Assembly (NCBI GenBank): GCA_964017235.1
Contig: OZ024931.1
Coordinates: 135,844,033 to 135,908,032 of the forward strand
Origin: Sabellastarte sp. h YS-2021
Taxonomy: Eukaryota > Annelida > Polychaeta > Sabellida > Sabellidae
Direction of reading: 5' to 3'
DNA length: 64,000 nucleotides
Shown piece after piece: positions 4,161 through 63,489 of the stretch (positions within the stretch are counted from its first letter, which is position 1; each line of letters begins with the position of its first letter). The notes below the pieces were generated by a model. It saw only the letters and a program-made list of their open reading frames with translations, made no database searches and was not told the origin of the DNA. The position numbers and the translations under genes are program-made.

Positions 4161-6723
4161 TTGTCCCAACTATTCTATTCTGGTGATAGGTCGAGGTTTA
4201 ACGACATCCTACAGTGTTGTGGTTTGGTTCAAAGTGTCTGTGGTCCGACTCATTTATTGGGTCACACTCTGGATGTTCTGATATCTCCCTGCAACTCAGA
4301 TTTTGTCCGCAATGTCAGTGTTGGAGATTTCATTTCTGACCATGCTGCCATAAGATGCCAACTGGATTTCTCTCACCCATCTACCAGCATCGACAAATGG
4401 GTCTCTTATCGTCGGTACCACAGGATTGATATCGACCAGTTCAGAAATGACCTTAAAAATATACCGTTTGTACGGTCCACTGAAGGTACTGCTGCAGAAC
4501 TTTATGATCAGTACACAACTGGTGTTACACAGGTACTTGACAAGCATGCTCCTATCATTTCACGCAAGGCTAAACAGCAGCCTGATGAGTGGTTGTCTGA
4601 TTCGTATCGCATGGCTCGATCTCTTAGGCGGTAATTTGAACGAAGGTGGCGAAAACATAAGTCAGAGTTGAATAGATCAAGACTCCGCTGGCAAATTGCC
4701 TGGTGTAATCGACTGGCCAATAAAGACAAGGGTTCATACTATACAAATCTCATAACTGCAAATAGTCGTGACCCCAAGAAGCTATGGCAGTCATTGATGA
4801 AGGTCTTGCATCACACTTCTGAGACTGTCCTGCCTGCTCATAGCTCAGATAAAAGCCTCGCAGACATGTTTGCTTCTTTTTTCTCCAATAAAATAAGCAA
4901 AATCAGGGACACCTTCTCTACTTCTGGCTCTTTCAATGATGCACCGGATTCGTTGCCTCCTGCTTTCAATGCCTTTATGCCTGTCACTGAAGATGAGGTC
5001 TATAAGTGTATTAGTGAATCCCCCACTAAATCTTGCTCACTAGACCCAATACCAACATTCCTCCTTAAGGATTGTCTTGATATCCTCCTCTCTTCTATTA
5101 CCAAGTTGGTAAATCATTCTCTCATTGAAGGATCTTTCCCAAAGTGTTTCAAAAAGGCGGTTGTCAACCCCCTCATAAAAAAGGCTTTCCTTCCCAGAGA
5201 CAACCTTAAGAATTATTGCCCAGTGTCTGGTCTTTGCTTCCTGTCAAAGTTGGTTGAGTGAGTCGTTGCTAGGCAGCTAACGTCACACATTAATAACAAC
5301 AAACTGGACAATCCTCATCAGTCAGCATATAACCCAGGACATTCCACGGAAACTGCTTTATTGACTATAAAAAACGAGGTTCATCTCTCTCTGGCACGCG
5401 GTGAACCCACAGCTCTAGTACTTCTTGACTTATCAGCCGCATTTGACACTATAGTTCATAATATTCTCCTTGGTTACCTTAAATCCTGGTTTGGTCTTGG
5501 TGGAACAGTTCTAAGGTGGTTTGCTTCCTACTTAAGAAATCGTTGCCAGGCCATTAAGATAGGCTCCACACTATCTGAATTAAGCAATCTCATCTATGGA
5601 GTTCCGCAAGGTTCTGTTCTGGGTCCGTTATTGTTTTCACTCTATACAACACCACTTAGTAAAATTATTCGCCTCCACCCACATATTAAATTCCATTTTT
5701 ATGCAGATGATACTCAGTTATACATCCATCTCTCCGACAAGAATGCTTTTTCGGCTCTCGCCAAGCTAAATGCCTGTCTTCATGATGTCCAAGAGTGGAT
5801 GTCTCTCAGTAAATTGAAGCTCAACCCTGAAAAAACTGAGTTTATTGTCTTTGGTTCCAAGGCTCAACGTCAGAAGATTTCCTCTCACTTTCCTGTTAGC
5901 ATTCTTGGTAGCCTTCTTCATCCGGTTGATTCTGTTAGAAATCTAGGTGTGTGGTTTGATGCAGATTTTTCATTCTCTGAGCATATCAAGAGGACTTGCA
6001 AAGCGTGCTTCCTTCAGATGCGTGACTCCGTAGAATTAGAAAGTATCTCACTCCTGAAGTGGCAGTCCTTGCTGCAAGTGCCTTGGTTAGTAGTCGTCTG
6101 GACTATTGTAACTCTCTGTTCAGAGGTTTGTCCGGTTTCAATCAGTACAAATTGCAAAGTATTCAGAACACCCTAACTTGTATTATTACAAATCATGGAA
6201 AGTATGCTCATGTTACACCCATTCTACAGAAACTCCACTGGTTGCCTGTTAGGTACCGTTGCATTTTCAAAACTGCAACACTTGTGTATAAATTTTTGCA
6301 TAGTGGTTCTCCTTCTTATTTTGAACCATTCTTGTCTTTTAGTAGTTTTCCCTATAGTACTAGACATAGTCACCCAGATCGTCAATACCTTAATTACAGT
6401 TCCTCCTTTCCATTCATCAGTCTTCAAGTCAGCCAAACATTTCGGCCATAGTTTTGCCTTTGATATTCCTAAGATCTGGAATGACCTCCCTCAAGATGTT
6501 CGCAGTGCAACATCAGTTGCCTCCTTCAGAAAGAAGCTTAAAACATACCTGTTTGCAAAAGCCTACCCACCATAGCCTCCCCCGTCACATCTGTGTCTCC
6601 TTGGTACGACCTGGCTATGTCCCTTGATTAACGCTAACTGCCTTGCTTTAGGTTTAGATGCGCCTTAGAGTCCATCAGTGATGGAGATTAAGCGCTATAA
6701 AAGTCCACATTAGATTAGATTAG
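4161..6723 (+). pseudogene. 5'-truncated L2/CR1-like LINE, ORF2 broken
   Basis: One reading frame carries the end of an apurinic-type endonuclease (GPTHLLGHTLDVLIS, then GDFISDHAAI), the linker, and a reverse transcriptase with DLSAAFDT, YGVPQGSVLGPLLF and the catalytic YADDTQLYI. It ends with the conserved tail ...FGHSFAFDIPKIWNDLP and ...SFRKKLKTYLF. TAA (4632-4634) and TGA (5259-5261) interrupt this single frame; a shift near 6020-6060 leaves it and another near 6395 returns to it. The 5' part of the endonuclease and any ORF1 are missing, which is usual for 5' truncation during target-primed reverse transcription. The copy is dead. The wording around YADD and the C-terminal tail fits the L2/CR1 group; the exact clade is inferred. 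Confidence 0.92.
6576..6723 (+). repeat. 3' UTR and ATTAG-repeat tail of the L2/CR1-like LINE
   Basis: After the ORF stop the sequence ends with 'gagattaagcgctataaaag' and then a short direct repeat (ATTAG, three times) in place of poly(A). Short tandem 3' tails are typical of CR1/L2-type elements. Similar tail words appear on the opposite strand near 18390-18435. Confidence 0.8.
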
Positions 6724-6825: not shown

Positions 6826-8575
6826 GAATATTTTTTTCATTTTTTATTGTTTCACATATTTGTAATAACCATATACACAATTCACAATGTTGTACACTCT
6901 ATCAGACAAAGTTACAATTCTAGACTAAAAGGGAATTTAAATCAAATAATAGGACTAATCAACATGTAATAAAAAAAAATAAAAAAAACTACATACAATT
7001 TGTTACATGCTACATAATTGAAAAGACACTATAACATATACATTTGAAAGAAAAAAATTACTTCAAGATTAATTCAAACTTTTAAAATGTTTATTCTGAA
7101 AATACTGGAAGCCATCGAAGCCAGGTTTTGACAAATTTTTCTTCCATTTTACCAATCTTTGATAACAGACATTCGTCTGTATATATCTGACAAAGCTTAT
7201 GCTTAAGGGCTGATATGTTTAGTCCACTGCCAGATTTGGATGTTTCAAAAATGTATTTCTTGGTGACAATAATTAATGTGTTAATTGGGATATTGTTTTG
7301 ATCATGCAAGGGATAACCACAGATTATAATAAAGTCAGTAAATATTATTTTAAAGTTAATTTTTTCAACAAGATACTTTTCGATAGCTTCCCAAAAAAGT
7401 TTTACTTGACCACATTGATAACAAGAGTGCAAAATACTTTCTGATACATTGTTACATCTGAGACACAAGGAACAATCGGACAACCCGAGTTTTTGAAGAT
7501 ACTGTTTTGTCCCGAGTATTCTGTACAATACTTTCATCCGGAACCATGTGTGTGTTTAAATTTGTACTCCATCGTTTTTTTGAAGAATGATTATTTTTTT
7601 CCATGGATATCAAACATCTATAAAAATCACTGACCCCTTTAGATTACTTGAATATAATCCGGATATGGTTCGGTATAAAGGGTCTTGCTAGAGAGTCGTT
7701 GTCTTGTTGATCATTATCCTTTAAAAATTTACGGGCATTAAGTTTTACACGGAGGTATGAAAGAAAGTTGACATGATCAAAATTATAAAGTCTCTGTAAC
7801 TGATTGCAGCTCATAATTGTACCCCTTGGATCTAATATATCACTGACTGTTATTAGACCTTTTAAGTACCAATCAGAAAAAAGAGGGGTTCAGCTGAAAA
7901 TTTGTTGTTATACCAAATAGGAGATGTTAGTAAGTGACTTTTAGACTGAAAGATTTGATTGTTTAGGACATTATACCATGAATCAAGTGTGTGTAGCCAA
8001 AACTTATTTGTTGTCCATTGCTTCAGTAATTTAATATATTCTGGGCCAAGCGTTAGAATTCTGTCAAGTTTGGAGTTTACTGTGAGTTGAAATAACTTAA
8101 TCCAAGGGGTGGAATCTTTTCCTCTGAATAGTCTTCGAAGCCAACTTGTTTTAAGAGAACTTAAAAATAGTTTTACATTTATCATTTTTATTCCCCCCAG
8201 GCAATTTTCCTTCATTAAAGTTCTCCTATTTATCTTGTCTGGCTTATCAGACCAAATGAATTTGAATAATATATCATTTAATTGGGTTAACCATATCTCA
8301 TTTGGATTTGGTAGACTTAGAAACAGATGATTTAATTTGGCCAGAAAAAAGGTCTTTATTACGGTCACTTTTCCTATTGGGGTGAGATATCTTCTGTTCC
8401 ATATATTGATGAGATCTTTAATTTCCGTTAGTTTTGCACTAAGATTCAGGTCTAACATACTATCTAGGTCTACTGAAAAAGTTAATCCCAGGAGGTCAAA
8501 CTGAGTACAAAATTTGAATATTACATATCTCCGGCGAATTTCTGTGCGCACTCAAATACTGAAATCATTTTATGT
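6826..8575 (-). pseudogene. 5'-truncated L1/Tx1-like LINE, C-terminal half of ORF2
   Basis: Two minus-strand segments (7862-8551, then 7091-7537) match the region after the reverse transcriptase in L1-type ORF2. The first has FDLLGLTFSVD and IWNRRYLTPIGKVTVIKT. The second has the terminal Cys/His cluster (CSLCLRCNNVSESILHSCYQC). Between them, 7538-7861 is no longer in frame. The endonuclease and catalytic RT motifs are absent. The T-rich stretch at 6826-6850 on + would be the A-rich 3' end. The general plan matches the intact LINE at 14-18 kb, but it is a different, diverged family. Confidence 0.85.
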
Positions 8576-13601: not shown

Positions 13602-14040
13602 AAAACAAAATAGAGATCAATGAAAATGATTACAGCTTTGTTAACACCCATGAAACAGAAGGCGTATTCGACTGGCGAGATAATAGAAGAAATACTTGTA
13701 TGAGATCTATATTTTCGGTTGACTCTACTTTATGGTAGATTTTATACATGTACGAGGTTACCACATGTCTCCCTGCTGGTAAACCAGGAAGAACATGATG
13801 ATCAAGGCTAAATGGACCAATGAAAATAAAGCATTTACACAGTACTGATAGAAACTCAAATGGTCGCCATTTTGTTTAATAGTTTTGTACAGCTGAATAA
13901 GATTTATCTTTTTGTGTGGAAATATAATATCTAGAGAACATAATAAAATCGTATAAAGCATTAAAAATGCTAAATTATGATACCCACATTGTTAGATTTT
14001 ATCTGAAGAATTTATAAGTATTTTTATTTTATTTTTGCAG
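13602..14040. other. Presumed intron sequence before the LINE insertion
   Basis: No coding frame. It lies between a donor at 13589 and an acceptor ending at 14040, and is AT-rich. Confidence 0.35.
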
Positions 14041-14208
14041 TTTTTTGTATATTTTTTTTCTTTATAATAGTTTATTACACAAAGAACATTAAGTATATAC
14101 ATACAAGTAAAACATTATACAAATAAAACAAAATACAAGAACAGGTGTAAATAAATGATATGCATTATTGGATTAGTCTTGGGCAGAAGAATGATTGACA
14201 AAACCGTT

Positions 14209-17200
14209 TCAAACCAAAAGCAATTTATAAAAGGCCACTTTCATCTTGCCCCTGTCTGTTATAACAGGGCATCCACCTTCTTCGATCTGAACTAATATTT
14301 TGACTTTTTCTTTTATTAAACCAAGGAGTTCAATGAACAAGAAACTTTTATTTTTGTTTCTGTTAACATTTATGTAATGTTTTACATACATGATAATACA
14401 GTTCAACACGTCAAACAATGGGTCTTCTGTTAATGGTAAGCCAAAAATAACTTCACAAACAGTAAATTTAAATTTTACTTGTAATTTTTCATATATCCAA
14501 TCCCCAATTTTGGTCCAAAGCTTCATACTTTCTTTACACTCATATAGGTGATGCTGAATGGTATCAATTTTTTTACAGTAAATACAGAGTGATGAATCCT
14601 TGATGCCCCATTTATGTAAATTATAATTACAATTTAAGATTCTGTTCAAGACTTTATATTGAAAACTTTGAATATAACTTTCTTTCATAATTTTATATGG
14701 TAATCTGAAAACATGACTCCAGTTAAAGTTTTCCAAAAAGGGGTATAATTCAACCCATACATTTAATGCTGTAGGTGGTTTTGTGTTTTCTTTGATCAAA
14801 TGAGTGTACACTAATTTACTACTGACTTTTTCTATTGGTGTTAATTTCTTATTTATATAGAGTATAACATCATCTGACCAGCGCTCTATATTATTCAAAT
14901 TCTCATGCATTACCTGTTTCTTCCAAATTACAGGTATAGCGGTCAACATACAATTGTAAAACATTTGACTTATGTCTGATTCTAGCTTTTCATTAAGATT
15001 GTCCCTTTTCAATATGCAACCATTATTATCTAGTATATCTAATATTTTCAGATTGTTGCCGTATTTGTTTGGGAATTGATTTGCGGTGATTGGTCTTTTG
15101 CCAATTTTAATATTTTTATTGTATAGTACATATTCATTTAGTATTTCAGAGTTTGACACTGGTTCCATGCCATAGAAATCATCCCAACTTTCAAGTACCT
15201 GTTGATGAAAGGGAGATAAGCAGTTTTCTACATAAGAAAGACCTAGTTTTTTGTTCAACATGAATTGATTGATAGACAGCATTTTTAAAAACAAAAATTT
15301 ACTATTCAAATTTTCACTACAAACAAGACGTTTTTTCCAGCCGCACTTGGCAGCAATATTCATTTTATGAACATCTACCATTTTTAGTCCTCCATCCTCA
15401 ATAAGACCTGTTATAGTTTCTTTTTTAATCTTTGGCATTTTGTGTCTCCATAAGAAATCCATGAGTATTTTATTTATTCTATCAAGTACTTCTTTTGGGA
15501 CATAAATCAAACTCAGTAAGAAAATTACCTTAGGCAGAACCAATGACTTTATGATTGTAATTCTCCCCTTTAAAGAGAGATTTCTGGCATTCCATATGCA
15601 CAATATTTTTCTCATGTCTTCTAACCGTTCTTCAAAATTTAAACGAACCATTTCTTTAACATTTTTTGAAAACCACACACCTAAGGTTTTAAAGCAGCCA
15701 GTTCTAATTTTGATTTCAGATAACGACGATGGCTTCTTGTGATGTTTCTTAGTGTTAACGCCAATTGGTATTATCTCAGTCTTATCAAGATTGAGTTGTA
15801 AGCCTGAAAACTTTGAAAATGTTTGAAATTCTTTTATGGCAAGTTCTATAGAGGCCATATCTTTTAGGATAAGACTGGTATCGTCCGCCAACATTTTTAT
15901 TTTGTAAGTTTCCCCATATATGGTTATACCCTTTATGTTATTGCATTGTCTCAGTTTAATGGCTATTATTTCTGCCACAATCAGGAAAAGTAATGCTGAT
16001 ATTGGACACCCTTGTCTTATCCCCCTTGTTATTTTGAAATAACTTGAATAATAACCATTGTTCCCTACACAGGAGGAGATATCAGTATAAAGAATTTTGA
16101 TCCATTTGATAAACTGTGGCCCAAAGTTAAATTTGTGTAGTGTATTAAAAAGGAAATCCCATTCTATAGAATCAAAAGCTTTCTTGAAATCAATAAGAAC
16201 AAGATATCCAGGTATTTGAAATTTCTCAGTATAAATTATTAAATCCTCCAGAGTTCTGACATTTTCTCCTATGTACCTACCTTTTATATATCCTACTTGA
16301 TCCGAACTGATAATTTTTGGCAAAACGTTTTGCAATCTTAATGCCAAGGCTTTTGTCAGAATTTTGTATTCAGTCTGTAGAAGACTAACAGGTCTCCAGT
16401 TTGCCAAATAGCGCAAGTCTTTGTTTTGCTTTGGTAGTAGATTTAAGATGCCTCTTTTTTGGTCATCACTTAGGTTATGACTGTCTAAAGAATATTTATA
16501 ACTTTCAAAGAGGATCTCTTTTATATCAATCCAAAAAAATTTGTAAAAATTGGTGGTGAAACCATCAGAACCAGGAGATTTATTGTTTGCTAAAAGTTTA
16601 AGTGCTTTGGTACATTCTTCAACTGTTAGCGGTTCATCACATAACATTCGATCGTGATAACTTAACTGAGGGATATTTTCTATTTTTAGGAAATCATCAG
16701 CTATATGAGACTTATCTGATTGAGATGTATAGAGATCTTTATAGAAATGCTTTTCTTCTTCAATTATGTCTGCTAAAGTTGTTATTTCTTTGTTGTTTTT
16801 TGTAATAAGTTTTTTAATGTACTTGTTGTTATAATTTCTTTTTTCCAAGTCCAAGAAGAATTTAGTGTTCTTTTCCCCATCCTCTACCCATTTAACTTTT
16901 GATCTTAAGATACTAGCATTATGTCGTTTTTCCAAAATTTTTTCCCATTCATTCTTATAATGTAAGTAATCCTGAAAACTATCACTATTTTCATCCCCCA
17001 TATTTTGTTCTAGCTCTATCACTTTCTTCTTTATATATGCTTCTTCATTCCTCAAAGTTTTGGCTCTTTTACTTGAATAAATCATTGTTTGAGACCTTAT
17101 TTCACATTTTAGGTAATCCCAGAGAGTATTCTTATTTTCGAAAAAGGTGTTTTCTTTTACATTCTTTATAATATTTTTTGTGAGTTGTACATAGTTTGGG

Positions 17201-18009
17201 TCAGACAAAAGGTCATTATTGAACTTCCAGAACCCTCGACCTCGCTTACTGCTTCCTATTAGCTCTATCTCGATCGTTACTACACTATGATCTGACATAT
17301 TTCCTGGTGAAACCCATATATTTTTTACCAAGTATTCAAGCTGGATTGAAATCAGCCAAAAGTCAAGGCGTGATTGAACCAGACCGGCACTAGTTCTCTG
17401 TCTTCTAGTGAAACCTGGATTTATTTTGTTTCTAACCCTCCAAATATCCACTAATGAGAGATCCTCACATATTCCCTTAATGTTGTCACTATAAACAGAA
17501 TTTTTTTCAAAAGTCCCACCCTTTTTATCTTGCATTGTATTTAAGCAAGTATTGAAATCTCCTCCAATTAACAGAGGGTTGCCATTGCAATTTTGTAGCA
17601 TTTCTCTAAGGTTAGATAAAAAGGAAATCTGTTCATTAAGTTTGTCCTTTGTTGGAGCATATATATTTACCAATATATATATTTTTTCTTCTAACTTGCA
17701 TTCTATTATGAGAATCCGTCCCTGTGTATCTTTCTTGGTTGACAGAATGTTAAGGTCAGTTTTGATATTTTTGGGAATGAGTATAGCCACTCCTCTACTC
17801 ACGGATGTCCCATGTGAGAATATAATATCATTCCCCCACTCTGTTTGCCATATTTTTTCATCATTTACAGTTGAGTGAGTTTCCTGTATGAGTGTAATTC
17901 CAGCATGAGAATTTCTTAGCCATGAAAAAATATGGTTGCATTTAGTTTTGTCACGCAGACCCCTACAGTTGAACGAGTTAAACTTTATTATGTCAAACTT
18001 ATTACTCAT
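14209..18009 (-). CDS. LINE ORF2: endonuclease-reverse transcriptase, intact
   Basis: A 1266-residue protein that would nick target DNA and copy the element's RNA there (target-primed reverse transcription). The N-terminal exonuclease-endonuclease-phosphatase domain (about 1-250) shows NSFNCRG, LIQETHS, LIGGDFNTC (about residue 146) and MSDHSVV (about 240). The reverse transcriptase (about 480-780) has NWRPVSLLQTEYKILTKALA, DQVGYIKGRYIGEN, IDFKKAFDSIEW (about 610), RGIRQGCPISALLFL and the catalytic MLADDTS (about 706). The C-terminal Cys/His cluster CIYCKKIDTIQHHLYEC lies near 1140-1157. Catalytic blocks look complete and there is no stop or shift. The Met at 18009 directly precedes the endonuclease start, as in other L1-type ORF2 proteins. 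Assignment to L1 or Tx1 is inferred from motif wording. Confidence 0.95.
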   Translation of the reverse strand: MSNKFDIIKFNSFNCRGLRDKTKCNHIFSWLRNSHAGITLIQETHSTVNDEKIWQTEWGNDIIFSHGTSVSRGVAILIPKNIKTDLNILSTKKDTQGRILIIECKLEEKIYILVNIYAPTKDKLNEQISFLSNLREMLQNCNGNPLLIGGDFNTCLNTMQDKKGGTFEKNSVYSDNIKGICEDLSLVDIWRVRNKINPGFTRRQRTSAGLVQSRLDFWLISIQLEYLVKNIWVSPGNMSDHSVVTIEIELIGSSKRGRGFWKFNNDLLSDPNYVQLTKNIIKNVKENTFFENKNTLWDYLKCEIRSQTMIYSSKRAKTLRNEEAYIKKKVIELEQNMGDENSDSFQDYLHYKNEWEKILEKRHNASILRSKVKWVEDGEKNTKFFLDLEKRNYNNKYIKKLITKNNKEITTLADIIEEEKHFYKDLYTSQSDKSHIADDFLKIENIPQLSYHDRMLCDEPLTVEECTKALKLLANNKSPGSDGFTTNFYKFFWIDIKEILFESYKYSLDSHNLSDDQKRGILNLLPKQNKDLRYLANWRPVSLLQTEYKILTKALALRLQNVLPKIISSDQVGYIKGRYIGENVRTLEDLIIYTEKFQIPGYLVLIDFKKAFDSIEWDFLFNTLHKFNFGPQFIKWIKILYTDISSCVGNNGYYSSYFKITRGIRQGCPISALLFLIVAEIIAIKLRQCNNIKGITIYGETYKIKMLADDTSLILKDMASIELAIKEFQTFSKFSGLQLNLDKTEIIPIGVNTKKHHKKPSSLSEIKIRTGCFKTLGVWFSKNVKEMVRLNFEERLEDMRKILCIWNARNLSLKGRITIIKSLVLPKVIFLLSLIYVPKEVLDRINKILMDFLWRHKMPKIKKETITGLIEDGGLKMVDVHKMNIAAKCGWKKRLVCSENLNSKFLFLKMLSINQFMLNKKLGLSYVENCLSPFHQQVLESWDDFYGMEPVSNSEILNEYVLYNKNIKIGKRPITANQFPNKYGNNLKILDILDNNGCILKRDNLNEKLESDISQMFYNCMLTAIPVIWKKQVMHENLNNIERWSDDVILYINKKLTPIEKVSSKLVYTHLIKENTKPPTALNVWVELYPFLENFNWSHVFRLPYKIMKESYIQSFQYKVLNRILNCNYNLHKWGIKDSSLCIYCKKIDTIQHHLYECKESMKLWTKIGDWIYEKLQVKFKFTVCEVIFGLPLTEDPLFDVLNCIIMYVKHYINVNRNKNKSFLFIELLGLIKEKVKILVQIEEGGCPVITDRGKMKVAFYKLLLV

Positions 18010-18264
18010 CCAAGTGAAATCAACATATAGTGAGGTCGATATCTATTTTGGTTTAATGTCACTGATGCTTTCATTGCAATAAATTTGAATGCTTTGCCCA
18101 AGACTGACATTATTGAGATAGGTTTAGCAACATCCTTGCAGTTACGTTTTTCCATCGAAGGAGTTATTTCAGAAGTAATATAAAAACACGAACATATATA
18201 TACAGAGACATCAAACAAGACAACACAATAAACATAAATACCAATGCAAAACATATTTAAGATT

Positions 18265-18620
18265 AATTATTTTGGTTGACTGGTGAGCAGCAACATCTTC
18301 ATTTCACAACCTATTGACACTTACATTGAAATGTTATATCTGTATCATTCAACTAACAAAATTAGCAATAGCCTTCAAGAAACATGATTTTGTAAAATCT
18401 AATATAATCTACTGTTGACTTTTATAGTGCTTAATCTCAAATATTTTGTTTGGTGAACAGCAACATATTCATTTCAGCAGCCTATGGACATCTACATTTA
18501 AATGTTACAACCGTATCACTCAACAACATATTTAGCAAGATCATTAAAAAAAAACATGATTTTGTAAAATCTACTTGAATCAATATACTATTATAGTACT
18601 TGATCTCATTCATTTGACAG
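18265..18620. repeat. Two-copy tandem repeat, period about 170 bp
   Basis: Shared words: 'gtgaacagcaacat' (18278 as gtgagcagcaacat; near 18452), 'catgattttgtaaaatct' (near 18384 and 18554) and a 'ttatagt-cttgatctca' type end. Each unit contains the L2-like tail word on the minus strand. Confidence 0.7.
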
Positions 18621-18769
18621 TCTAAGGCTCTAAGACACCACCAAACACACAGAATATGAAAAAAACATGGGTCCCTTAGCATAGCCGGATAGCTGAGTCT
18701 ATAAAATTTATAAGTATTTTTCAAGTATTTGACACAAAGAATATGAATGGACAATTGAACAGGTTCTAG

Positions 18770-19070
18770 ATCTACACACATACATTATTACAAATAAACC
18801 TTATGAATAAACATTATTGACATCTATTTTAGGCTAAGTGTTACCATCAAAACGTTAGGATGATAAATCCCTTTTCACAGGAGACATTTAAGTTTGTTAG
18901 AAATATAATGTTGCTTTCACTGGCTTTGAATGTTTTTTTTTCCTACTAGCATCCACTCATTAAGAACATCATCAACCTGTAAGACTGATTCTACACACAT
19001 ACATTATTCTAAATAAACATTTATGAATAAACTTTATTGAACTCTATATTAGGCTAAGTGTTACAAGTTT
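18770..19070. repeat. Two-copy tandem repeat, period about 218 bp
   Basis: 'ctacacacatacattatt' and 'ttaggctaagtgttac' occur in order near 18773/18832 and again near 18991/19051. Confidence 0.7.
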
Positions 19071-19901
19071 TGAAATCAATTGCTGATCTGTTGTATTTTA
19101 TTCAAAGGTATTTATAATGTTTTATAGTTTTGCCAAACAAATCTGGTATTAAAAAACTAAACATTACAGTCCAAGATCAAGATGGTTTAAGTTGAATATT
19201 TTACCGACTTAATGATATACAGGTAATTATGTAAAATTCTTGTGTTTTTAACAGCAGCACCTCACCAACAATGTTTCAATAAACTAATCAGGTGTCTTTA
19301 ATGATATACAGGCCACTATATCAAACTGTGTGGTAACTACTTTCAGCAGGTATAGCTCATTTACCCAGTATTAAGTAAATATAAGAACCAGCAATTACAC
19401 ATTATTATATGTTAATTATGAGACTGTGATGATAAACTCTGAGTAATTAAGTTCTATATTACATTCTTTAACTCAGTAATGCATCCTAGTATGAACTGTT
19501 GTATTTTAGCTAGGCTTGTAGTTTTCATTGTTTCAACAAAATTAATTACAATTGTACGACTATTAAAGTATGGTGTACTGATAGCATACTAACAAAGTGT
19601 GTACACAGTATTATAGGGGAGGTAAGTAAATTTTGATATACGTTTCAAAGCATACATTATTGCTCAACAATTGTCCGAGTACATTTACTGGACAACATAG
19701 ACAACAGCATCCATGTACATGTAGAGTAACACATGAAAGCACGCATAGGGAAAAAAGTTTAATAAATGATCAAAGTTGATCACAAACCACATTTTGTAAC
19801 AAAAAGGCTGAAACCTAGATTGAGGTAAAGACTAAGTTACTATCTAACTTTTCAATAAACTTTTTCATTCCTCACATTATGCTATGTGTAGTTTAACAGT
19901 T

Positions 19902-21245
19902 TTACAGTGTCTCACGAATTTCCATCAGCATACCTCCTAGTTTATTTTGTCCCTTCCATTTGTTGTGATTCCAAATGTCCCTGTCTCTTAACCCTAGTCC
20001 AGCCCCCCAATATCTGTCCTTTGGGTTCGCTTCCACTAGTCTGGTTTTCTTTGTACCCTTTAGAAAGGCTCTACATGGTTCAGACTGCTCAAATTTTGCC
20101 TCTAATGCAACTTTCATAATTCTGTCCTGGTTACTTTCCCACACATCCTTCCTTAGACCATTCACTGTATATCCCAACCTCTTGTGTTCTTTTGGATCCT
20201 CAGAAGCCATTATTCTTTCAGCTGTTTCCTCATCCTGAAATAGCAGGGCTTTATGAGACATGAGATATTGTTCTACACAGTTATAACTTTTTTTTCCAAC
20301 TTGGAAAAAGCTTCTGTGATGATTGGACAGTGGACTTGAAGAAGTGAAGAAGGCTGTCGTCCCATGTTTTGAAGGTGAGGCAACAGTCTCTGGTTGGAAC
20401 ATTGATGGTAGTTTATGTACAGTATCGGTTGTGTACAGCTGTCCATTGAAAATGAGTTTATCAGACACCAATTTCACTGACTGCCTGTATGGGAACTGTT
20501 TACCATCAACCGTGTAGTTGTGCATTGCCCAGTATAAAGGAGTCAGCACTTGCCTGCGTTTTGCCACTTCCTCTGGAAAGTCTTCATTTACAAATATGTT
20601 GTTCTGTCTTAATACACTACGGTTTTCAAAGGTATACTGTCTATCTTTGAATAGTAAGAACCTCACCAAAATTGGTCTTGGTCTTCCTCCCGGTTTGATC
20701 TGTGGTCTCCCAATTCTGTGTGCACGTACCACAGCTCAAGGATTGAGGTTTCCTAGTCCTGCATGTGCCAATGCTTGGATTACTTTACTTTCACAGTCTT
20801 GATAGGTCTCCCCTCTTTCTTCAGCTATTCCTGAGAAAAGCAAATTGTCTCTTCTTGAGTAGGTCTCCTGATTCAACAGTTTCTGTTCAAGATCTTTTCT
20901 CAGCTGTCTCTCTCTCTTTAACTCATCTTTGCACAATTTAATTTCTTTGCCCTGTGCTTCTAATTGATTTTTTAGTATTTCCAACTTTGACAGCAGAATA
21001 TTATTTCCTGTTGCAATTTCTTCCTTCAGTATCGATCTGAAATTGCTTCTCATTTCATCCTTTATCATTTCCAGTATGTCCCTAGTCGGAATCGTTTGTC
21101 CTGTGTACAGTAAATCTGAGCTATCGCATGTGCCAGTTAAACCAAGTCTACTTGATTTAGGCTGATGTGTAATGGAGGGTGAGGGAGTGTCCGGTTCCAC
21201 ATCACTATGTGATCGAACATTTTTGGCTGGAGTCTGATCAGACAT
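19902..21245 (-). pseudogene. LINE ORF1: coiled coil + RNA-binding core + NADAR domain, one stop
   Basis: One minus-strand frame runs from the Met at 21245 to the stop at 19902, broken only by TGA at 20738-20736 (one transition from CGA). Residues 1-55 are polar and disordered-looking; about 55-125 form a charged heptad-like coiled coil. The L1 ORF1-type RNA-binding domain begins at QETYSRRDNLLFSGI and continues past the stop as VRAHRIGRP and RPILVRFLLFKDRQ, then NEDFPEEVAKRRQ. The last 150 residues are a complete NADAR domain: SSPLSNHHRSFF, YNCVEQYLMSHKALLF, DPKEHKRLGYTV, ALEAKFEQS, LVEANPKDRYWGAGLG and NKLGGMLMEIRETL. L1 ORF1 proteins bind LINE RNA as trimers; NADAR enzymes process ADP-ribose-linked substrates, including ADP-ribosylated guanine in some bacterial systems. 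The role in retrotransposition is unknown. The stop may be decay or be read through. Confidence 0.85.
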
Positions 21246-21469
21246 TCTGACTTTATTGTTACATAAACTTCAGTGATCAAGACGACAGAACTATGTGTTT
21301 ATACTGATGAGATCTGAACACTTACAGTGTTAGTTGTATTGTCACTATCACTTTCAAGAAGGTTTCAGTGAAGTTCTCAAAACACTTTTCACAAACCCCC
21401 TCTATTTATAAAGCTTTTATTTATTTTACATTTTCCTCTATTTTCCATATGGTCTTGTAAGAAAGTCAA
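21246..21469 (-). other. LINE 5' UTR next to ORF1
   Basis: Non-coding sequence between the ORF1 start and the first upstream direct repeat. Confidence 0.5.
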
Positions 21470-21836
21470 CAACTAAGCTCCATCTAAAATGTCAGCTTCC
21501 TGTCACATATGATCTGGTAAAATCTGGTATTACTGCTCATCTGAACTTTAATGCCTAATACATCCTAAAATCCATATTTACTATCCAAGTTTAGTAGTCC
21601 ATTGTATTCTATACACCTTTTTTCTCTTTATAGACTAAATCTGGTAATGACAACTAAGCTCCATCTAAAATGTCAACTTCCTGTCACACATGATCTGGTA
21701 AAATCTGGTATTACTGCTCACCTGAACTTTAATGTCTAATACATCCTAAAATCCATAATTACTATCCAAATATGGTAGTCCATTGTATTCTATACACCTT
21801 TTTTTCTCTTTGTAGACTAAATCTGCGAATGATAAC
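21470..21836 (-). repeat. 181-bp direct repeats upstream of LINE ORF1
   Basis: Two nearly identical units start at 21470 and 21651 ('caactaagctccatctaaaa'), and a third start is recognisable near 21831. Their place immediately upstream of ORF1 on the LINE's own strand recalls the promoter monomers of some L1 elements. A promoter role is inference. Confidence 0.75.
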
Positions 21837-22491
21837 AGCTGCCAATGTTTATATTTACTGATCAACTATTTCCTAGATTTTTCCTATCATTCACTGTCTG
21901 AAAAAACGAAAGTTTTTTGTATATATTTATGTTGTAATGTGACAATATAAGAAATAAACAATGACAACAGTATGTAGCAACTTGAATTATTGTCTCCATT
22001 CTACTTAAGCATAAACTTTATACTAATGGAGACAATTTTCAAACGATTTTAAAATTTGGAATCTATGAAATCTATCTATCCATTCTACTGGTCATTTAAT
22101 GCACTTAATGGAAATCCACTGCGCATATTTAATGCTTACTTTCCATAGATTATCAGTCGAATACACCTAATGGAAGGTGTGATGCCCCGAAAAAGTACAA
22201 GTAAGTAAGAAAGTCAAAATCCTAGCAATTTTGCCAGTGCCAATGAAACAAGGGAAGTTGTGACACCCCTAAATTGTGAAGGTCATTTAGAATGTGAAAA
22301 TAATAACAGGGATATGCTGGACAAAACATAACATGATGAAACACATATATTAACTGAATATGCAAAGCAACTAACAGATTTGTTTGGAGTTCAACCATAG
22401 GGTAAAAATCAAAATTCATTTGAGCACAGTGAAGTACTAAGCATACTAGGTAATGAACACAAGTTCTAAACAATTAAGGAGCCACCTTGTA
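21837..22491. other. Stretch without supported gene
   Basis: AT-rich. It may include the distal 5' end of the LINE and the start of the following transposon. No motif recognised. Confidence 0.45.
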
Positions 22492-34446: not shown

Positions 34447-36582
34447 ATGTCGTCCCCAGGACAACGCAGAGGGAGTTGTGGCCACGCAATGGCGAATTTT
34501 GACTCTCATGCTTTTTGTGCAAGATGTTGTGAGAAGGGTAAGGGGTCTGATGACTGTGTTAAAAATCCCCAGTCCACGGATTGTAAAATTTGCAATGCCT
34601 TCTCTGAAGAACAACGCCTTCAGCTTGCCACTCTCTAATATCGTATTAAAAAAGAAAAGAGAGAAGCAAAGAAACTGGAAGCAACTCCAGCCAAAGACAG
34701 TGAAGAACTTGTAGATCCTTCAAATGTGTCCGTTATTGGGCCTGTAGAAAAGCAAGCTATTTCACCTACTGAGCCCCCACCAGACAAGAAACCAAAAAGG
34801 ACACAAAGAAGATTGCTAAACGGGAAAAATCTCCCTCTGCTTCTGCTTCTACTTCTAAAGCTTCTCAGGGTTCTACAGACGACAAGATAGCCACGTTAGA
34901 CTCTAAATGGGCTGAATGTTTCAACCGGCTGGAGGCCCTTCTTTTGGCCAGAAACATGGAACCTAACTTCTCTGCTGACGTGAAAGTGACTCCGGCCCAT
35001 TCACCTCCAGCTTCTGTTTCTCACTCTTCTGAACCCTTCATCCGACCTTCCTCTTCAACTACGCTTCCTGGAACTGGCTCCTCTGCCGAAAGGCATCAGC
35101 CGACCAGTAAAGCTAAGATCAGTCAACAGTCTTCAACGACGACAAAGTTTCCTGGTACGGGCTCCTCTGCTTCTAAGCATCAGCCGGCCAGTCAAACTAA
35201 AACCAGCCGACCTACTTCCTCAAAAGGCTCCACTGCGCTTACGCACCAGCCTTCCAGTCAAATCAAGACTGACCGACCAAATCTACCACCGGATACTATC
35301 TCCGACCCATCCGGCCGACCTACTCCATCTGACACAGCAGATTCTGCTTCACCAGTCCTACACAGATCTCGTCAGGACAGTGTCTCAAGTTTTTCATCAG
35401 AGGCCGGTAGTGATCTGTCGGACAGACCCCTCCTTGACTTGTATACTGAGGAAGGAGAGCTTTCTGAAGATCCGGAACTTTCTGTTATGGATCAAGATCA
35501 GCCGGTATCAGAAGAACAGACCTACCGGGACACCATGCAGGGCATTCGCTCTTATATGGGCTGGACCCATATCCCAGAAGTAGACAGTTCTGCCACTACA
35601 GCTGAAGATAACCCCTTTGCTGGGCCCAAAGCTGTTACTCCTGGTAAAGTCTCTGTTAAAATGCCCACAGAAGAATGGCTGTGCAAGAAACTCTCCAAGC
35701 TCAACTTAAGTTTGTCGGAAGGATACCCTTCCAGAGGTTCTGAAGCCGGAGGTCTGGCCAAGGACGTTTTTCTCAGGCCACCACGTTCCCAAGCTAAGTG
35801 GTATGGTCTACATACCGATCAGAAAGCAGAACCCTCTTAAAGTTTCAACATGGCATACCGACTCAGTGAAGCTTAACAGTAGTTACAGCCGGATAGCAAG
35901 GTATACGGGACTTGGTTCTACCCCTCCTGCTTCCCGCAGAATTTCACAAGAAACTTTAAGAAGGTGGGAAAGGTCTGCCAGAGAGGCATCCATTGTATGT
36001 AATCAGAGTGCTAGCTTCAATCGCTGCCTGGTTAAGGTCCAGCAGAGTATGAAAGATCAACTCAAGGTTTTAAAATCCGAACAGAAAGGCAAGGGTTCAG
36101 CCAAAGTGTCACCGGCTGTTGAGGAATTACAATATTTATTGGACTTCAATGCCAGCATCTCTCAGGCGGCAGCAAAGTCTATGGAACATTTGTCCGAATT
36201 CGTGTTCATCACCATGGGGAATCTCACTTTAGTCCGCCGGGATGCGTACCTCAGCCATCTAAGAACTGGCATAAAACAGGACACCCTCACAGCTCTGCGA
36301 ACGGCACCTCTCCACATCTCCACTCTCTTCCCTGATGCCACAATTAAGCGGGCCGAAGAGGAGATAGCCCAATTTGAAGCTAAAAGCCACTCTGCTTCCG
36401 GACACAGCAAGGGTCGTTATCACCCTTATGAAAGGGCAGAAAAGAAGTCCGGAAACAACAAGGACTCAAGACAAGAAAAGCCAGCCTGGAAAACTATTGG
36501 GAAAAAGCAGTACAGGAAAGGCAAGGGTCGGTCTACCTCTTACTCCTCAAGACCTGCCAAGGGCCAGCAGTCGTACAAATGA
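34447..36582 (+). pseudogene. DIRS Gag-like ORF, broken
   Basis: The start ATG at 34447 opens a Cys/His-rich segment (CGHAMANFDSHAFCARCC...DDC...CKIC), a putative zinc-binding N-terminus, then FSEEQRLQLATL. A TAA at 34636 interrupts the frame, a shift lies near 34790, and a second near 35800. Between the shifts is a Ser/Thr/Pro-rich region with repeated SSA-KHQPASQ-like units and an acidic region. The last segment (35803-36582) is helical and basic (RRWERSAREASIVCNQSASF, RRDAYLSHLR, RAEEEIAQFEAK) and ends in a Lys/Arg-rich tail. Gag proteins package the element RNA; this copy cannot make one without suppression. Boundaries of the shifts are approximate. Confidence 0.8.
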
Positions 36583-36637
36583 CAGTTACAGTTTAAACAA
36601 GCTCCCTATACGACTGCTGGCCGGGAGCCCACATCAC

Positions 36638-36709
36638 CAACAGACAAGAGACTTTTTAAATGTAAAAGTTCATCAACAGACAAGAGACCTTTTAAATGTA
36701 AAAGTTCAT
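36638..36709 (+). repeat. 36-bp tandem duplication
   Basis: Two copies of 'caacagacaagagac-tttt' plus 'aaatgtaaaagttcat', between the Gag-like and RT genes of the DIRS element. Confidence 0.85.
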
Positions 36710-36730
36710 GTTGCTTAATTTGTCACTACT

Positions 36731-38869
36731 GTGCCCGGGCAATCGCAAAAGAAAGATTTAAGTCCCGGGCCAGCAGTTTGTACTACCAAAGATTACAAAT
36801 TAAAATCTGTGAAAAGTGCTTTGTGTGTCACTCAATTGTCTCTTGCCACTTCTGTCTCAAATGTACCAAATGTTGCCCAAAGTCCGCCTGTAGGGGCCAG
36901 ACTTCAAAACTTCTGGGAAACTTGGCTAGAACTGGGGGCTGGACCCAAAACAATCCAAAACTTGAGGGAAGGTTATACCCTCCCCTTCCGGATCCGACCC
37001 AAACTCACAAGTTTTCCGACAGTCATAAGTTGTTATGCCAATCCCCACAGGAACAACTACCTGTTGGAGGCATTGCATCAGCTTATGGACAAAAATGCAA
37101 TAGAGCTGGTCCAAAACCCAACCTCTCTGGGGTTTTTCAACAGACTTTTCCTAGTTCCCAAACCCAACAACAAATGGAGGCCCATTTTGGATCTGAGCAA
37201 ATTAAACCTCTTCCTCAAAGTGGAGAAATTCAAGATGGAAACACCGGAAACCATCAGAACTTCCCTCCAACAAGGGGAGTGGGTCACCTCAGTAGACTTC
37301 AAAGATGCCTACTTCCACATACCAATACAGGAACAATCCAGGAAATACCTCAGATTTCATATCCAGGGCCGGAACTACCAATTCAAGGCACTGCCCTTCG
37401 GCCTGTCCACAGCTCCAATGGAGTTCACAGTGGTAGCAAAAGAGGTGAAACTGATGGCCACACACAAGGGTATAAGGATCCACCAGTACCTAGACGACTG
37501 GTTGGTCAGAGCCAGATCCCACCAAACCTGTACCCAACACACCCAAATTCTGGTCAAGATGTGCCAGGATCTGGGCTGGCAGGTGAACTTAGAAAAATCA
37601 GAACTGGAGCCCAAACAAGTTTTCAACTTCGTAGGCTACCAGTTCGACCTCAGGTCCGGCCGGGTCAGACCGACACCGGACCGGTGGCAAAGCCTTCAAG
37701 GGAAAATACAAACACTGCTGTTACTACTGCCCTGTCCGGTCCGACAGTTCATGTCCTTGATAGGTCTGTTAACTGCCACAGAGAAACAAGTTCACCTAGG
37801 CCAGTTGCACATGAGACCCATACAGTGGCATCTCAAGAACAATTGGAGGGTACCGGAATCTCTAGAGAAGATCATCCCTCTACCCAGATCCCTGCACCCA
37901 CATTTACAATGGTGGCTAAAAGAAAGCAATGTGCTTCAAGGTCAACCATTACACCCCATAAAGCATGCTCTGCAAATTTTTACAGACGCATCAAAAGAAG
38001 GGTGGGGCGCTCACTTAAACGAGCTCACTGCAAGGGGGTCCTGGTCAGTGCCGGAAAGCAAGCTGCACATAAATCACCTGGAGCTAAAAGCAGTTTTCTT
38101 GGCTTTGAAAGAGTTCCAGGACCTATGCACAAACCAAATAGTCCTAGTGGCCACAGACAATACCACTGTAGTGGCCTACATAAACAAAGGAGGCATGAAG
38201 TCGGGCCCTCTCTGTGCCCTACTGTGGAGAATCTTGACCTGGTGTTCCCAGCGACAAGTAACCCTCAAAGCCCGGCATATCCCTGGCCGGCTAAATGTGA
38301 TAGCAGACAAGCTATCCAGACTAAATCAAACCATTCAAACAGAATGGTCCCTCCTTCCGGACATTTTCCACAGATTATGCAGCAAGTGGCACCGGCCTCA
38401 GATAGACCTATTTGCCACGAGGTTCAACCACAAGTTACCTCAGTTTGTCTCTCCAGTACCGGACACCCTGGCTGTAGCAGTGGATGCACTCACTCTGCCA
38501 TGGGAGGATCTGGACGCATACGCCTTCCCACCGACCGCCATATTGGGCAAAGTGGTGGAGAAGCTACTGGACTCCCCTTGCAAGAGATTCATTCTGATTG
38601 CTCCGGGTTGGCCCAACATGCCTTGGTTTTGGGACTTGGTGACCATGTCCAGCCAGGTCCCTCTCAGCCTACCCAACCTGCCCAATCTGTTGACACAGCC
38701 CTTCAATCAGATCCCTCACAGAAATCTGACAAATCTAAATCTCCATGCCTGGCTCCTAGAGCCACAAAAATCAAAGAGCAGGGCTTCTCTGAGGCAGTGG
38801 CAGCAAGAATTGAGGCTCCTCAAAGAAAATCAACCAGATCAGTCTATGAGGCAAAGTGGACCATTTTAA
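36731..38869 (+). CDS. DIRS reverse transcriptase-RNase H, intact
   Basis: 712 residues. The RT domain (about 100-330) shows LFLVPKPNNKWRPILDLSKL, WVTSVDFKDAYFHIPI, LPFGLSTAPMEFT and the DIRS-type catalytic box YLDDWLV (about 251-257). RNase H (about 410-525) shows FTDASKEGWGAH (about 417), INHLELKAVFLALKEF, VATDNTTVVAYINKGG and ARHIPGRLNVIADKLSR. The following block (QIDLFATRFNHKLPQF ... DALTLPWEDLDAYAFPP ... LIAPGWPNMPWF) is the conserved DIRS post-RNase H region, labelled methyltransferase-like in some families. No stops or shifts. Its 3' end overlaps the recombinase gene in another frame. Start codon choice is uncertain, since the first conserved RT block lies well inside. Confidence 0.92.
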   Translation: MPGQSQKKDLSPGPAVCTTKDYKLKSVKSALCVTQLSLATSVSNVPNVAQSPPVGARLQNFWETWLELGAGPKTIQNLREGYTLPFRIRPKLTSFPTVISCYANPHRNNYLLEALHQLMDKNAIELVQNPTSLGFFNRLFLVPKPNNKWRPILDLSKLNLFLKVEKFKMETPETIRTSLQQGEWVTSVDFKDAYFHIPIQEQSRKYLRFHIQGRNYQFKALPFGLSTAPMEFTVVAKEVKLMATHKGIRIHQYLDDWLVRARSHQTCTQHTQILVKMCQDLGWQVNLEKSELEPKQVFNFVGYQFDLRSGRVRPTPDRWQSLQGKIQTLLLLLPCPVRQFMSLIGLLTATEKQVHLGQLHMRPIQWHLKNNWRVPESLEKIIPLPRSLHPHLQWWLKESNVLQGQPLHPIKHALQIFTDASKEGWGAHLNELTARGSWSVPESKLHINHLELKAVFLALKEFQDLCTNQIVLVATDNTTVVAYINKGGMKSGPLCALLWRILTWCSQRQVTLKARHIPGRLNVIADKLSRLNQTIQTEWSLLPDIFHRLCSKWHRPQIDLFATRFNHKLPQFVSPVPDTLAVAVDALTLPWEDLDAYAFPPTAILGKVVEKLLDSPCKRFILIAPGWPNMPWFWDLVTMSSQVPLSLPNLPNLLTQPFNQIPHRNLTNLNLHAWLLEPQKSKSRASLRQWQQELRLLKENQPDQSMRQSGPF

Positions 38870-39768
38870 AAAATGGTGCGTCACTAATCAGGTGGACTTC
38901 AGGTCACCACCTGAAAAGTCTGTGGCTGACTTCCTAATGTACCTCTTTGAGACTAAGAAGCTGCAGCCCAGTACCATTGATGGCTACAGGTCTGCCATTG
39001 CTGATAAACTAGGTGATACAACAGTTAATATCAGCAAAGATGGTAATCTCACCCGTCTCCTGGACAGTTTCCACAGAGATAGACCTAAAGGGCGGAGGGG
39101 AGTACCCTCCTGGAACCTTTCCCTGGTGCTGCACCAGCTAACAAAGGCCCCTTTCGAACCTCTTAGGGAGGCATCCCTGAAGCATGTAACCTTCAAGACT
39201 GTTTTCCTTTTGGCCCTAGGGTCGGGTAAAAGAAGGAGTGAGATCCATGCATGGCAGCACAAAAACATCAGACACCAGTCTGATTGGTCTAAGGTGTCCC
39301 TGGTTCCATCTCCCAGCTTCCTTTCAAAGAATCAGCTGGCCAAAGAGGGTCCAGAGAGTGTAGCCCCAGTGGTCATACCAGCACTGGCTCCTACCCTGGA
39401 CAGATCCCTCAAATTCTGACAGGTCCCTTTGTCCGATCAGAGCCTTGCGCTACTATCTGGACAGGACATCAGACATCAGACAGGGTAAAGAATTAGTCTT
39501 TGTCTCCTTCAAGAAAGGCTTCGACAAGGATATCTCCCCTGCTACCATCTCCTCTTGGATCAAACAAACTGTGATCCTCTGCTACGAGCTCTCAGATCAT
39601 CAAGCCCATACCCTACATCAAGTTAAAGCTCATGATGTTCGGGCTTTCGCTGCTTCTAAGGCCTTCCAATCGGGAGTTTCCTTAGATCAGATCTTATCAG
39701 CTTGCCACTGGAAATCCCACAATACCTTCACGCAGTTTTACCTGAAGGACTTGGCTTGGGCTGATTAA
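38761..39768 (+). pseudogene. DIRS tyrosine recombinase, two frameshifts
   Basis: The recombinase starts inside the RT gene in another frame (GFSEAVAARIEAPQ and RSVYEAKWTI belong to its N-terminus). At a run of six A near 38868 the frame shifts, continues as VDFRSPPEKSVADFLMYLFE and GYRSAIADKL, and carries the first catalytic Arg in LGSGKRRSEIHAW. At 39405-39430, within a local 'gacag-tccct' duplication, the frame ends in TGA and the rest resumes in the original frame with RYYLDRTSDIR, HQVKAHDVRAF (His-x-x-Arg) and HWKSHNTFTQFYLKDL (His/Trp and the nucleophilic Tyr). All catalytic positions survive but not in one frame. The enzyme would integrate circular DIRS DNA. The two shifts are opposite in sign. 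Confidence 0.88.
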
Positions 39769-62219: not shown

Positions 62220-63489
62220 AGGCGGGTTGCGTGTAACCAACCCGCCTATTAGATTGATGTGTCCGACGTCCGTCTGTCCGTCTGTCTGTCTGTCCGTCTG
62301 TCCGTCCACATTTTTCGTTTCCGGACTCTAACTTTAAATCGGTTTGACCAATCAAATTCAAACTTCACAGGGAGATAGATCACCATCATAGCTAGGTTCC
62401 TTTCGAAATTGGTGAAATTCCGTGTGTTCGTTTGTCCGTTTTTCGTCCGTTTGTCCGTCCATCCATCTGTTTGTCCACATTTTCGTTTCCGGATTCTAAC
62501 TTTAAAACGGTTTGACCAATCAAATTCAAACTTCACAGGGAGATAGATCACCATCATAGCTAGGTTCCTTTCGAAATTGGTGAAATTCCGTGTGTTCATT
62601 TGTCCGTTTTTTGTCCGTTTGTCTGTCCATCCATCTGTTTGTCCACATTTTCGTTTCCGGACTCTAACTTTAAAACGGTTTGACCAATCAAATTCAAACT
62701 TCACAGGGAGATAGATCACCATCATAGCTAGGTTCCTTTCGAAATTGGTGAAATTCCGTGTGTTCATTTGTCCGTTTTTTGTCCGTTTGTCTGTCCATCC
62801 ATCTGTTTGTCCACATTTTCGTTTCCGGACTCTAACTTTAAAACGGTTTGACCAATCAAATTCAAACTTCACAGGGAGATAGATCACCATCATAGCTAGG
62901 TTCCTTTCGAAATTGGTGAAATTCCGTGTGTTCGTTTGTCCGTTTTTCGTCCGTTTGTCCGTCCATCCATCTGTTTGTCCACATTTTCGTTTCCGGATTC
63001 TAACTTTAAAACGGTTTGACCAATCAAATTCAAACTTCACAGGGAGATAGATCACCATCATAGCTAGGTTCCTTTCGAAATTGGTGAAATTCCGTGTGTT
63101 CATTTGTCCGTTTTTTGTCCGTTTGTCTGTCCATCCATCTGTTTGTCCACATTTTCGTTTCCGGACTCTAACTTTAAAACGGTTTGACCAATCAAATTCA
63201 AACTTCACAGGGAGATAGATCACCATCATAGCTAGGTTCCTTTCGAAATTGGTGAAATTCCGTCTGTTTGTTTGTCCGTTTTTCCATCCGTTTCTTCGTT
63301 TTTGTCCGTTTTTCTGTCCATCCATCTGTCCGTCCACATTTTTGTTTCCGGACTCTAACTCGAAAACGGTTACTCCAATCTAATTCAAACTTCACAGGGA
63401 CATACATCACCATCATAGCTAGGTTCCTTTCGAAATTGGTGTAAATCCGTCCCTTCATTTGTCTTGTTTTTCTGTCCATTTGTTCGTTT
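62220..63489 (+). mobile_element. Element D: hairpin-headed element with 168-bp repeats
   Basis: Opens with the hairpin AGGCGGGTT...AACCCGCCT, then ATTAGATTGATG and a GTCCGTCTGTCC microsatellite, then 168-bp repeats. The head plan (hairpin, ATTRGATT, TCCG-rich run, array) is that of elements 1 and A. A second copy of the same head starts at 63490 within it, so the 3' end is not in this piece. Confidence 0.7.
62290..63480 (+). repeat. 168-bp satellite array of element D
   Basis: 'ccggactctaacttt' at 62321, 62489, 62657, 62825, 62993 and 63161 (period 168), then 63348 in a longer unit. The ccggattc variant recurs every three units. As 168 is a multiple of three, a 362-codon minus frame stays open by periodicity alone. 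Confidence 0.93.

Follow-up and report, generated by a model that had tools for sequence, protein, structure and literature searches.

A full-length L1-type LINE in the window

The window, i.e. the whole stretch of 64,000 nucleotides that was analysed, contains a full-length LINE on the minus strand. As 14 bp duplications are found on both flanks, the limits of the element could be set to 14053-21910 (7858 bp). The features of the element and of its ORF1 are listed with their window positions.

14039-14052, no strand: target-site duplication at the 3′ side, 14 bp, identical on both sides of the element
14053-21910, minus strand: full-length LINE of 7858 bp, bounded by the duplications and aligned to a second insertion (L031)
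14053-14208, minus strand: 3′ end with AATAAA and an A-rich tail, from sequence reading
14209-18009, minus strand: intact ORF2 with EEP endonuclease, reverse transcriptase and zf-RVT, from Pfam matches, start and stop verified
18010-19901, minus strand: AT-rich spacer of 1.9 kb that separates ORF1 from ORF2 and belongs to the mobile unit, 99.2% identical in L031, GC 0.30
19902-21245, minus strand: ORF1 with one TGA at 20738-20736, from translation of the frame; intact copies occur elsewhere in the same genome
20895-21245, minus strand: N-terminal region of ORF1, probable coiled coil, from weak coiled-coil Pfam matches, boundaries approximate
20427-20894, minus strand: L1-type RNA-binding core (RRM and C-terminal domain), from comparison of a profile of 27 relatives (A3) with 2YKP, boundaries approximate
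19905-20342, minus strand: NADAR domain, PF08719 with E 1.1e-42, residues 132-277 of a 277 aa piece
20271-20273, minus strand: catalytic Glu, E155 of the 277 aa piece, equivalent to E43 of 8BAU by alignment
20250-20252, minus strand: catalytic Lys, K162 of the piece, equivalent to K50 of 8BAU by alignment
20031-20033, minus strand: catalytic Glu of the YbiA subfamily, E235 of the piece, equivalent to E125 of 8BAU by alignment
21469-21836, minus strand: tandem pair of repeats in the 5′ region, each about 180 bp long (21469-21654 and 21650-21836), with a cross-match of 93-95%
21911-21924, no strand: target-site duplication at the 5′ side, 14 bp, identical on both sides of the element

ORF2 matches the Pfam models RVT_1 (4.4e-34), Exo_endo_phos (2.4e-9) and zf-RVT (9.7e-7), and its best solved relative is human LINE-1 ORF2p (8UW3, E 9.3e-87). 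A second insertion, L031 on contig C6, is 99.5% identical to the window element over 7774 bp and slightly shorter at the 5′ side. It is flanked by its own 14 bp duplication, which differs from that of the window copy. The flanking duplications suggest that insertion occurred by target-primed reverse transcription. Further copies end prematurely on the 5′ side, which is the usual behaviour of LINEs. The element thus shows the features of the L1 group, with an EEP endonuclease and an L1-like reverse transcriptase in ORF2, target-site duplications at two insertions, and 5′ truncation. The copy of this L1-type LINE that lies in the window is inactive. Going by the published oyster elements, the LINE probably belongs to the Tx1 group; we take the oyster Tx1 LINEs to be L1-group elements like that of the window.

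Human LINE-1 has in common with the window element the RRM and C-terminal core of ORF1p and an ORF2 with EEP and reverse transcriptase. It differs in having only a short spacer between the two ORFs, compared to 1.9 kb in the window element, and to our knowledge its ORF1p carries no NADAR domain. Long spacers of 1.5-2.6 kb are found in the elements with both a NADAR and an ORF2 match, with about 4 kb in L034, and among the spacers of L062, L064 and L065 some are internally repeated. Promoter monomers are present in the 5′ region of mouse L1, and by analogy the tandem repeats at 21469-21836 could be such monomers.

Several other features were noted in the window. By eye, overlapping long frames on the plus strand (34773-39419) resemble a DIRS-type element, with a reverse transcriptase followed by a tyrosine recombinase. 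Fragments of other non-LTR reverse transcriptases were likewise recognised by eye at 4161-6176 (plus strand) and 7091-8551 (minus strand). An open frame of 376 aa at 62249-63379 (minus strand) consists of repeats of a peptide with about 60 residues and is probably a translated minisatellite.

ORF1 ends with a NADAR domain

ORF1 starts with an ATG at 21245 and ends with a stop codon at 19904-19902. An earlier sequence-only reading had described a NADAR domain at the C-terminus of an L1-type ORF1 protein in 19902-21245, in a frame broken by a single TGA. This was confirmed, the TGA being at 20738-20736, and the strand, which had not been stated, is minus. Coding on the plus strand is excluded by many stops in its frames. 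As to whether the TGA is unique to this copy, the site could be read in six of seven near copies and is a sense codon in all six, so that it looks like a private defect of the window copy.

The piece downstream of the TGA (19902-20735, 277 aa) matches the NADAR model PF08719 with E 1.1e-42 and 146.5 bits (cut-off 35.1). The match covers profile positions 9-162 of 163, i.e. the domain is complete, as had been supposed from the sequence blocks EQYLMSHKA, DRYWGAGLG and NKLGGMLMEIR, all three of which are found in the window frame. Among solved structures, matches were obtained to the NADAR/YbiA proteins 2B3W (3.8e-13) and 8BAU (1.5e-10). The former is YbiA from E. coli and the latter a NADAR protein from Phytophthora nicotianae; they are of the same family with the same catalytic Glu, Lys and Glu, but both are stand-alone enzymes. 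At the position of E125 of 8BAU the window NADAR has the Glu of the YbiA subfamily, not Asp or His. The ORF1 protein of this LINE has, at its end, an apparently active NADAR ADP-ribosylhydrolase.

The L1-type core, which was likewise part of the earlier description, was identified with the profile of 27 relatives, which matches human LINE-1 ORF1p structures (2YKP, 8e-10; 2YKO, 1.7e-9; 2LDY, 7e-8) over both the RRM and the C-terminal domain. The L1 ORF1 model PF02994 did not match the window pieces alone and matched only one of 32 aligned ORF1 rows (see below). A profile search with this model gave no match in the genome, and equally none in any of 14 control genomes. For the coiled coil that had been described together with the core, part of the rows show weak matches to Pfam models of coiled coils, which support it indirectly.

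Copies and relatives in the same genome

When the 277 aa piece was compared to the same genome, at least 141 matching stretches with 39-100% identity were found; this number is a floor, as 140 of 2547 candidates were scored, and some stretches are pieces of one copy. PF08719 itself occurs at least 150 times, with all 150 scored matches, from 2705 first-look candidates, being above the cut-off. Not all of these 150 are LINEs, as the best 38, with frames of 167-179 aa, look like another element. Among the matches listed, none was on contigs C9, C10, C12, C13 and C15-C17, and many were on C8, C11, C14 and C18; this may reflect a limit of the search, so that copy counts are to be taken as floors.

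In a search with ORF2, 15 of 37 rows, representing 14 elements including that of the window, have a NADAR match located 1.5-2.6 kb upstream, as read from the two match lists. Four loci of 9-9.5 kb (L031-L034) have ORF2 identities to the window ORF2 of 99, 59-60, 40-51 and 33%, respectively, and in all of them ORF2 is downstream of an ORF1-NADAR fusion, at a distance of about 4 kb in L034. As the ORF2 identities decrease from 99 to 33%, the fusion is common to very different families.

For 12 of the 22 remaining ORF2 rows the upstream DNA was inspected; the other ten include three near full-length ORF2. A NADAR domain was found upstream in three cases (intact in L064, broken in L061, a fragment in L063), seven copies end at or within the spacer (L055-L059, L062, L065), and two are uninformative (L060, L066). 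The sequence-only reading had named copies of this LINE family that lack NADAR as evidence against a true fusion. Among the 12 copies inspected upstream, there is no full-length close relative of that kind; distant ORF1s without NADAR do exist and carry UPF0029 (see below).

The 38 best PF08719 matches represent a second high-copy carrier of NADAR in the same genome, a stand-alone NADAR ORF of 167-179 aa. Three of these (L111-L113) share several kb with 97-99% identity. At one such locus (contig C18, 8612000-8640500, with L115, L111 and L114), an rve integrase, a dUTPase and a BIR protein are encoded within 20 kb. A Pox_A32-like ATPase was found below the cut-off, and a large ORF resembles, by eye, a protein-primed DNA polymerase. 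This is a gene set as in Maverick/Polinton elements.

Conservation and co-inheritance of the NADAR domain

For analysis of conservation, 32 ORF1s were aligned whose frames, counted from the first Met, are open over 388-499 aa. They were hand-picked for openness and for a spread of identities, and three of them (L005, L025, L049) start later than the rest. Identities to the first ORF1 range from 32 to 91%, with 30 of 31 at 32-61%. PF08719 was matched in 32 of 32, which is not a frequency, as the ORF1s had been collected with NADAR-containing or ORF2 queries. The numbering of 8BAU was verified against nine residues that are named in the available text of PMC11543638. The catalytic residues E43, K50 and E125 are found in L002 as E324, K331 and E404, and none of the three varies among the 32 ORF1s.

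A check on selection at the active site had been suggested in the earlier reading. The dN/dS values of NADAR (Nei-Gojobori) are 0.17, 0.14 and 0.09 for the three independent pairs L002/L005, L009/L011 and L024/L025, with Fisher p values of 4e-6, 5e-7 and 4e-5, respectively, for which site counts are approximate. A further informative pair is L010/L011 (0.18), which cannot be counted separately from L009/L011. Very close pairs have too few changes to carry weight (L009/L010 with dN/dS 0.64 on 7 changes; L018/L019 and L035/L036 on 2 each), and the values for all 496 pairs were left unused because synonymous sites are saturated. The mean pN/pS over pairs amounts to 0.46 in NADAR, 0.51 in the core and 0.70 in the N-terminus. 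The NADAR domain is under purifying selection.

Trees of NADAR and of the core, computed for the same 27 rows, agree in 9 of 24 splits, compared to a mean of 0.27 and a maximum of 4 in 2000 shuffles; NADAR and core have thus mostly been inherited together. The distances of the two regions have a correlation of 0.87. Conflict between the trees is mild: L053 groups with L035 in the NADAR tree (96/73) and with L045 and L050 in the core tree (99/96).

A wider NADAR tree has 69 rows, of which two from PDB are partial; left out were L075, L093, L100, L104 and L108, which are short or partial, and L112 and L113, which are copies of L111. The 27 LINE rows are found on one side together with 8BAU, the stand-alone L111 and two viral-contig rows, while 34 bacterial/archaeal rows, three viral-contig rows and YbiA are on the other (100/94). 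The LINE group requires two changes in this tree and is one-sided in 29% of the bootstraps. L105, from viral contig IMGVR_UViG_3300037454_000906, scores 118.7 bits against the LINE NADAR profile, and bacterial/archaeal rows score 17-91 bits.

UPF0029 in place of NADAR

An additional search was performed with a NADAR-free query, the RNA-binding core of one divergent ORF1, by which 150 of 1060 candidates were scored. From these, 20 ORF1s were hand-picked across the score range. While 13 have NADAR after the core (disrupted in L123 and L134), the other seven (L124, L125, L126, L128, L129, L130, L131; e.g. L129:3-920, plus strand) are without NADAR and have UPF0029, a domain of the IMPACT/YigZ type (PF01205, E 2e-14 to 9e-22), at the same position. 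Neither 13 nor 7 is a count of independent families, as L116/L117 and L118/L119 are near-copies. In the NADAR-containing rows from this search, the catalytic Glu, Lys and Glu are present in 13 of 13, 13 of 13 and 12 of 12 readable cases.

In a core tree with 47 rows, the NADAR and UPF0029 kinds are separated by one branch (100/100, 100% of 200 bootstraps). Of the seven UPF0029 domains, that of L124 was compared to solved structures and matched an IMPACT homologue (6BQI, E 5.7e-7). IMPACT damps GCN2 signalling. At the one UPF0029 locus that was inspected downstream (L136), the start of an EEP-type ORF2 is found about 1.6 kb downstream of L129, with 29-34% identity to residues 12-536 of the window ORF2; the sequence covered ends within this ORF2 start. 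PF01205 occurs at least 150 times in the same genome, all 150 scored matches being above the cut-off, from 481 candidates. As some related ORF1s have UPF0029 and no NADAR, NADAR activity is not essential for such LINEs, which weighs against the function proposed below.

NADAR domains in other elements

The sequence-only reading knew of no NADAR in LINE ORF1 proteins. This is incorrect, as several Tx1 LINE ORF1s of Crassostrea gigas contain a NADAR domain of the YbiA family according to the available passages of a 2025 paper on Ectocarpus transposable elements (PMC12477816). These elements, which are from Repbase, were likened to that of the window by their description. In the available account the oyster elements appear as divergent matches, and copy number, selection, co-inheritance and the UPF0029 relatives are added here. 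The fusion itself is thus already in print, and what is new is its scale, the selection on it, its co-inheritance with the core and UPF0029 in the same slot.

The available text of PMC12477816 also describes a brown-algal Gypsy element with NADAR in Pol, and a role in RNA processing was suggested for NADAR in the Ectocarpus and oyster elements. The Gypsy element is a retrotransposon with a captured NADAR as well, but of the LTR type. The blastp matches of its NADAR are, per the authors, almost exclusively bacterial, while the LINE NADARs of the window genome are apart from the 34 bacterial/archaeal rows (100/94). NADAR is also found in the polyprotein of positive-strand RNA viruses, including picornaviruses of annelids and bivalves, which are RNA-based parasites but not retrotransposons (PMC9503650, as far as available). 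Among the matches listed for the open-access literature, no further report of NADAR in a LINE was found in titles or abstracts, and none of retrotransposon counter-defence against nucleic-acid ADP-ribosylation. PMC12477816 is the only open-access paper found that has YbiA together with a retrotransposon, and no open-access report was found, also among the wider matches listed, that connects UPF0029 with a retrotransposon.

A possible counter-defence function

The NADAR domain follows the core in frame, moves with the element, has largely been inherited together with the core and has kept its catalytic residues. We propose that the NADAR domain of ORF1p frees the RNA or cDNA of the element from ADP-ribose linked to guanine and so acts in counter-defence; we assign about 50% to this reading, in which substrate, host enzyme and benefit are all inferred. 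ORF1p would coat the element RNA, and host enzymes would attach ADP-ribose to guanine bases of this RNA or of new cDNA. Its removal by NADAR would let translation and target-primed reverse transcription proceed. The retrotransposon would thereby counter a host defence that works through ADP-ribosylation of nucleic acids.

The known biochemistry is consistent with such a function. NADARs hydrolyse ADP-ribose off guanine in DNA, including a eukaryotic NADAR without a link to DarT (available text of PMC11543638). On RNA, guanine ADP-ribosylation was reversed by NADAR alone among the hydrolase families tested. A point against the proposal is that YbiA of E. coli, which is active in vitro, does not protect cells from DarT1, so that the substrate in the cell cannot be read from conservation of the active site. 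The earlier suggestion that the element counters ADP-ribosylation of the nick it makes is disfavoured, as the tested NADARs are inactive on phosphate-end marks.

Six edible clams have an activity that ADP-ribosylates DNA at guanine-N2, and one of them is the source of the cloned enzyme CARP-1 (PMC11209040, as far as available). If the host is a bivalve, an activity of this type is a possible writer of the mark. A search of the genome for a host guanine ADP-ribosyltransferase with the Scabin-like model PF22596 gave no match, and there was none in 14 control genomes either; presumably this model should cover CARP-1. The NADARs of invertebrate RNA viruses are thought to oppose host ADP-ribosylation (available text of PMC9503650). 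We count the occurrence of NADAR in RNA viruses, and in a high-copy repeat of the same genome that has Maverick-like genes nearby, as parallel use that speaks for counter-defence.

A broader reading is that the C-terminus of ORF1 is a slot for any host-facing module, with NADAR and UPF0029 as alternatives, so that ADP-ribose chemistry explains one branch only. UPF0029 in 7 of 20 ORF1s from the NADAR-free search, the single fully supported branch between the two kinds and the IMPACT-like match of L124 argue for it, but a role of UPF0029 in LINEs is putative. We regard this reading, which is compatible with counter-defence, as possible if somewhat doubtful. The more specific version, in which the slot takes up swappable counter-defence domains, with NADAR stripping host-added guanine ADP-ribose from RNA or cDNA in one branch and UPF0029 occupying the other, is a tentative proposal that has a reasonable chance of being correct.

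NADAR may also act on other ADP-ribose linkages, such as in small derivatives that serve as host alarm signals, or on ADP-ribosylated host proteins near the RNP. Small derivatives for phage NADARs and macromolecular targets for those of RNA viruses have been proposed in the available text of PMC9503650. However, the tested NADARs act on guanine bases, and with NADAR fused to a core that binds RNA, a nucleic acid is the more plausible target, so that we consider such linkages unlikely. A role in RNA processing or RNP architecture, with ADP-ribose catalysis being incidental, would agree with the processing of the RNA intermediate proposed by the Ectocarpus authors (PMC12477816, available passages). 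Glu, Lys and Glu are invariant even though 30 of 31 ORF1s have an identity of 32-61% to the first, which points to chemistry and not to a scaffold, and a role of this kind seems rather improbable. That NADAR came into the window ORF1 as a separate insertion, by chance and in one copy, has a negligible probability: nothing was found in its favour, and it is ruled out by the at least 141 matching stretches, by the same fusion in many families and on many contigs, by the L031 copy and by target-site duplications that enclose the fusion.

If the proposed counter-defence is correct, some animals defend their genome by ADP-ribosylation of nucleic acids, since selection would have led a retrotransposon to reverse this modification. 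Clam and butterfly enzymes for guanine ADP-ribosylation are known, and its physiological role would then be open to direct tests. With NADAR and UPF0029 alternating in the same position, two added domains can be compared in nature on a common retrotransposon backbone.
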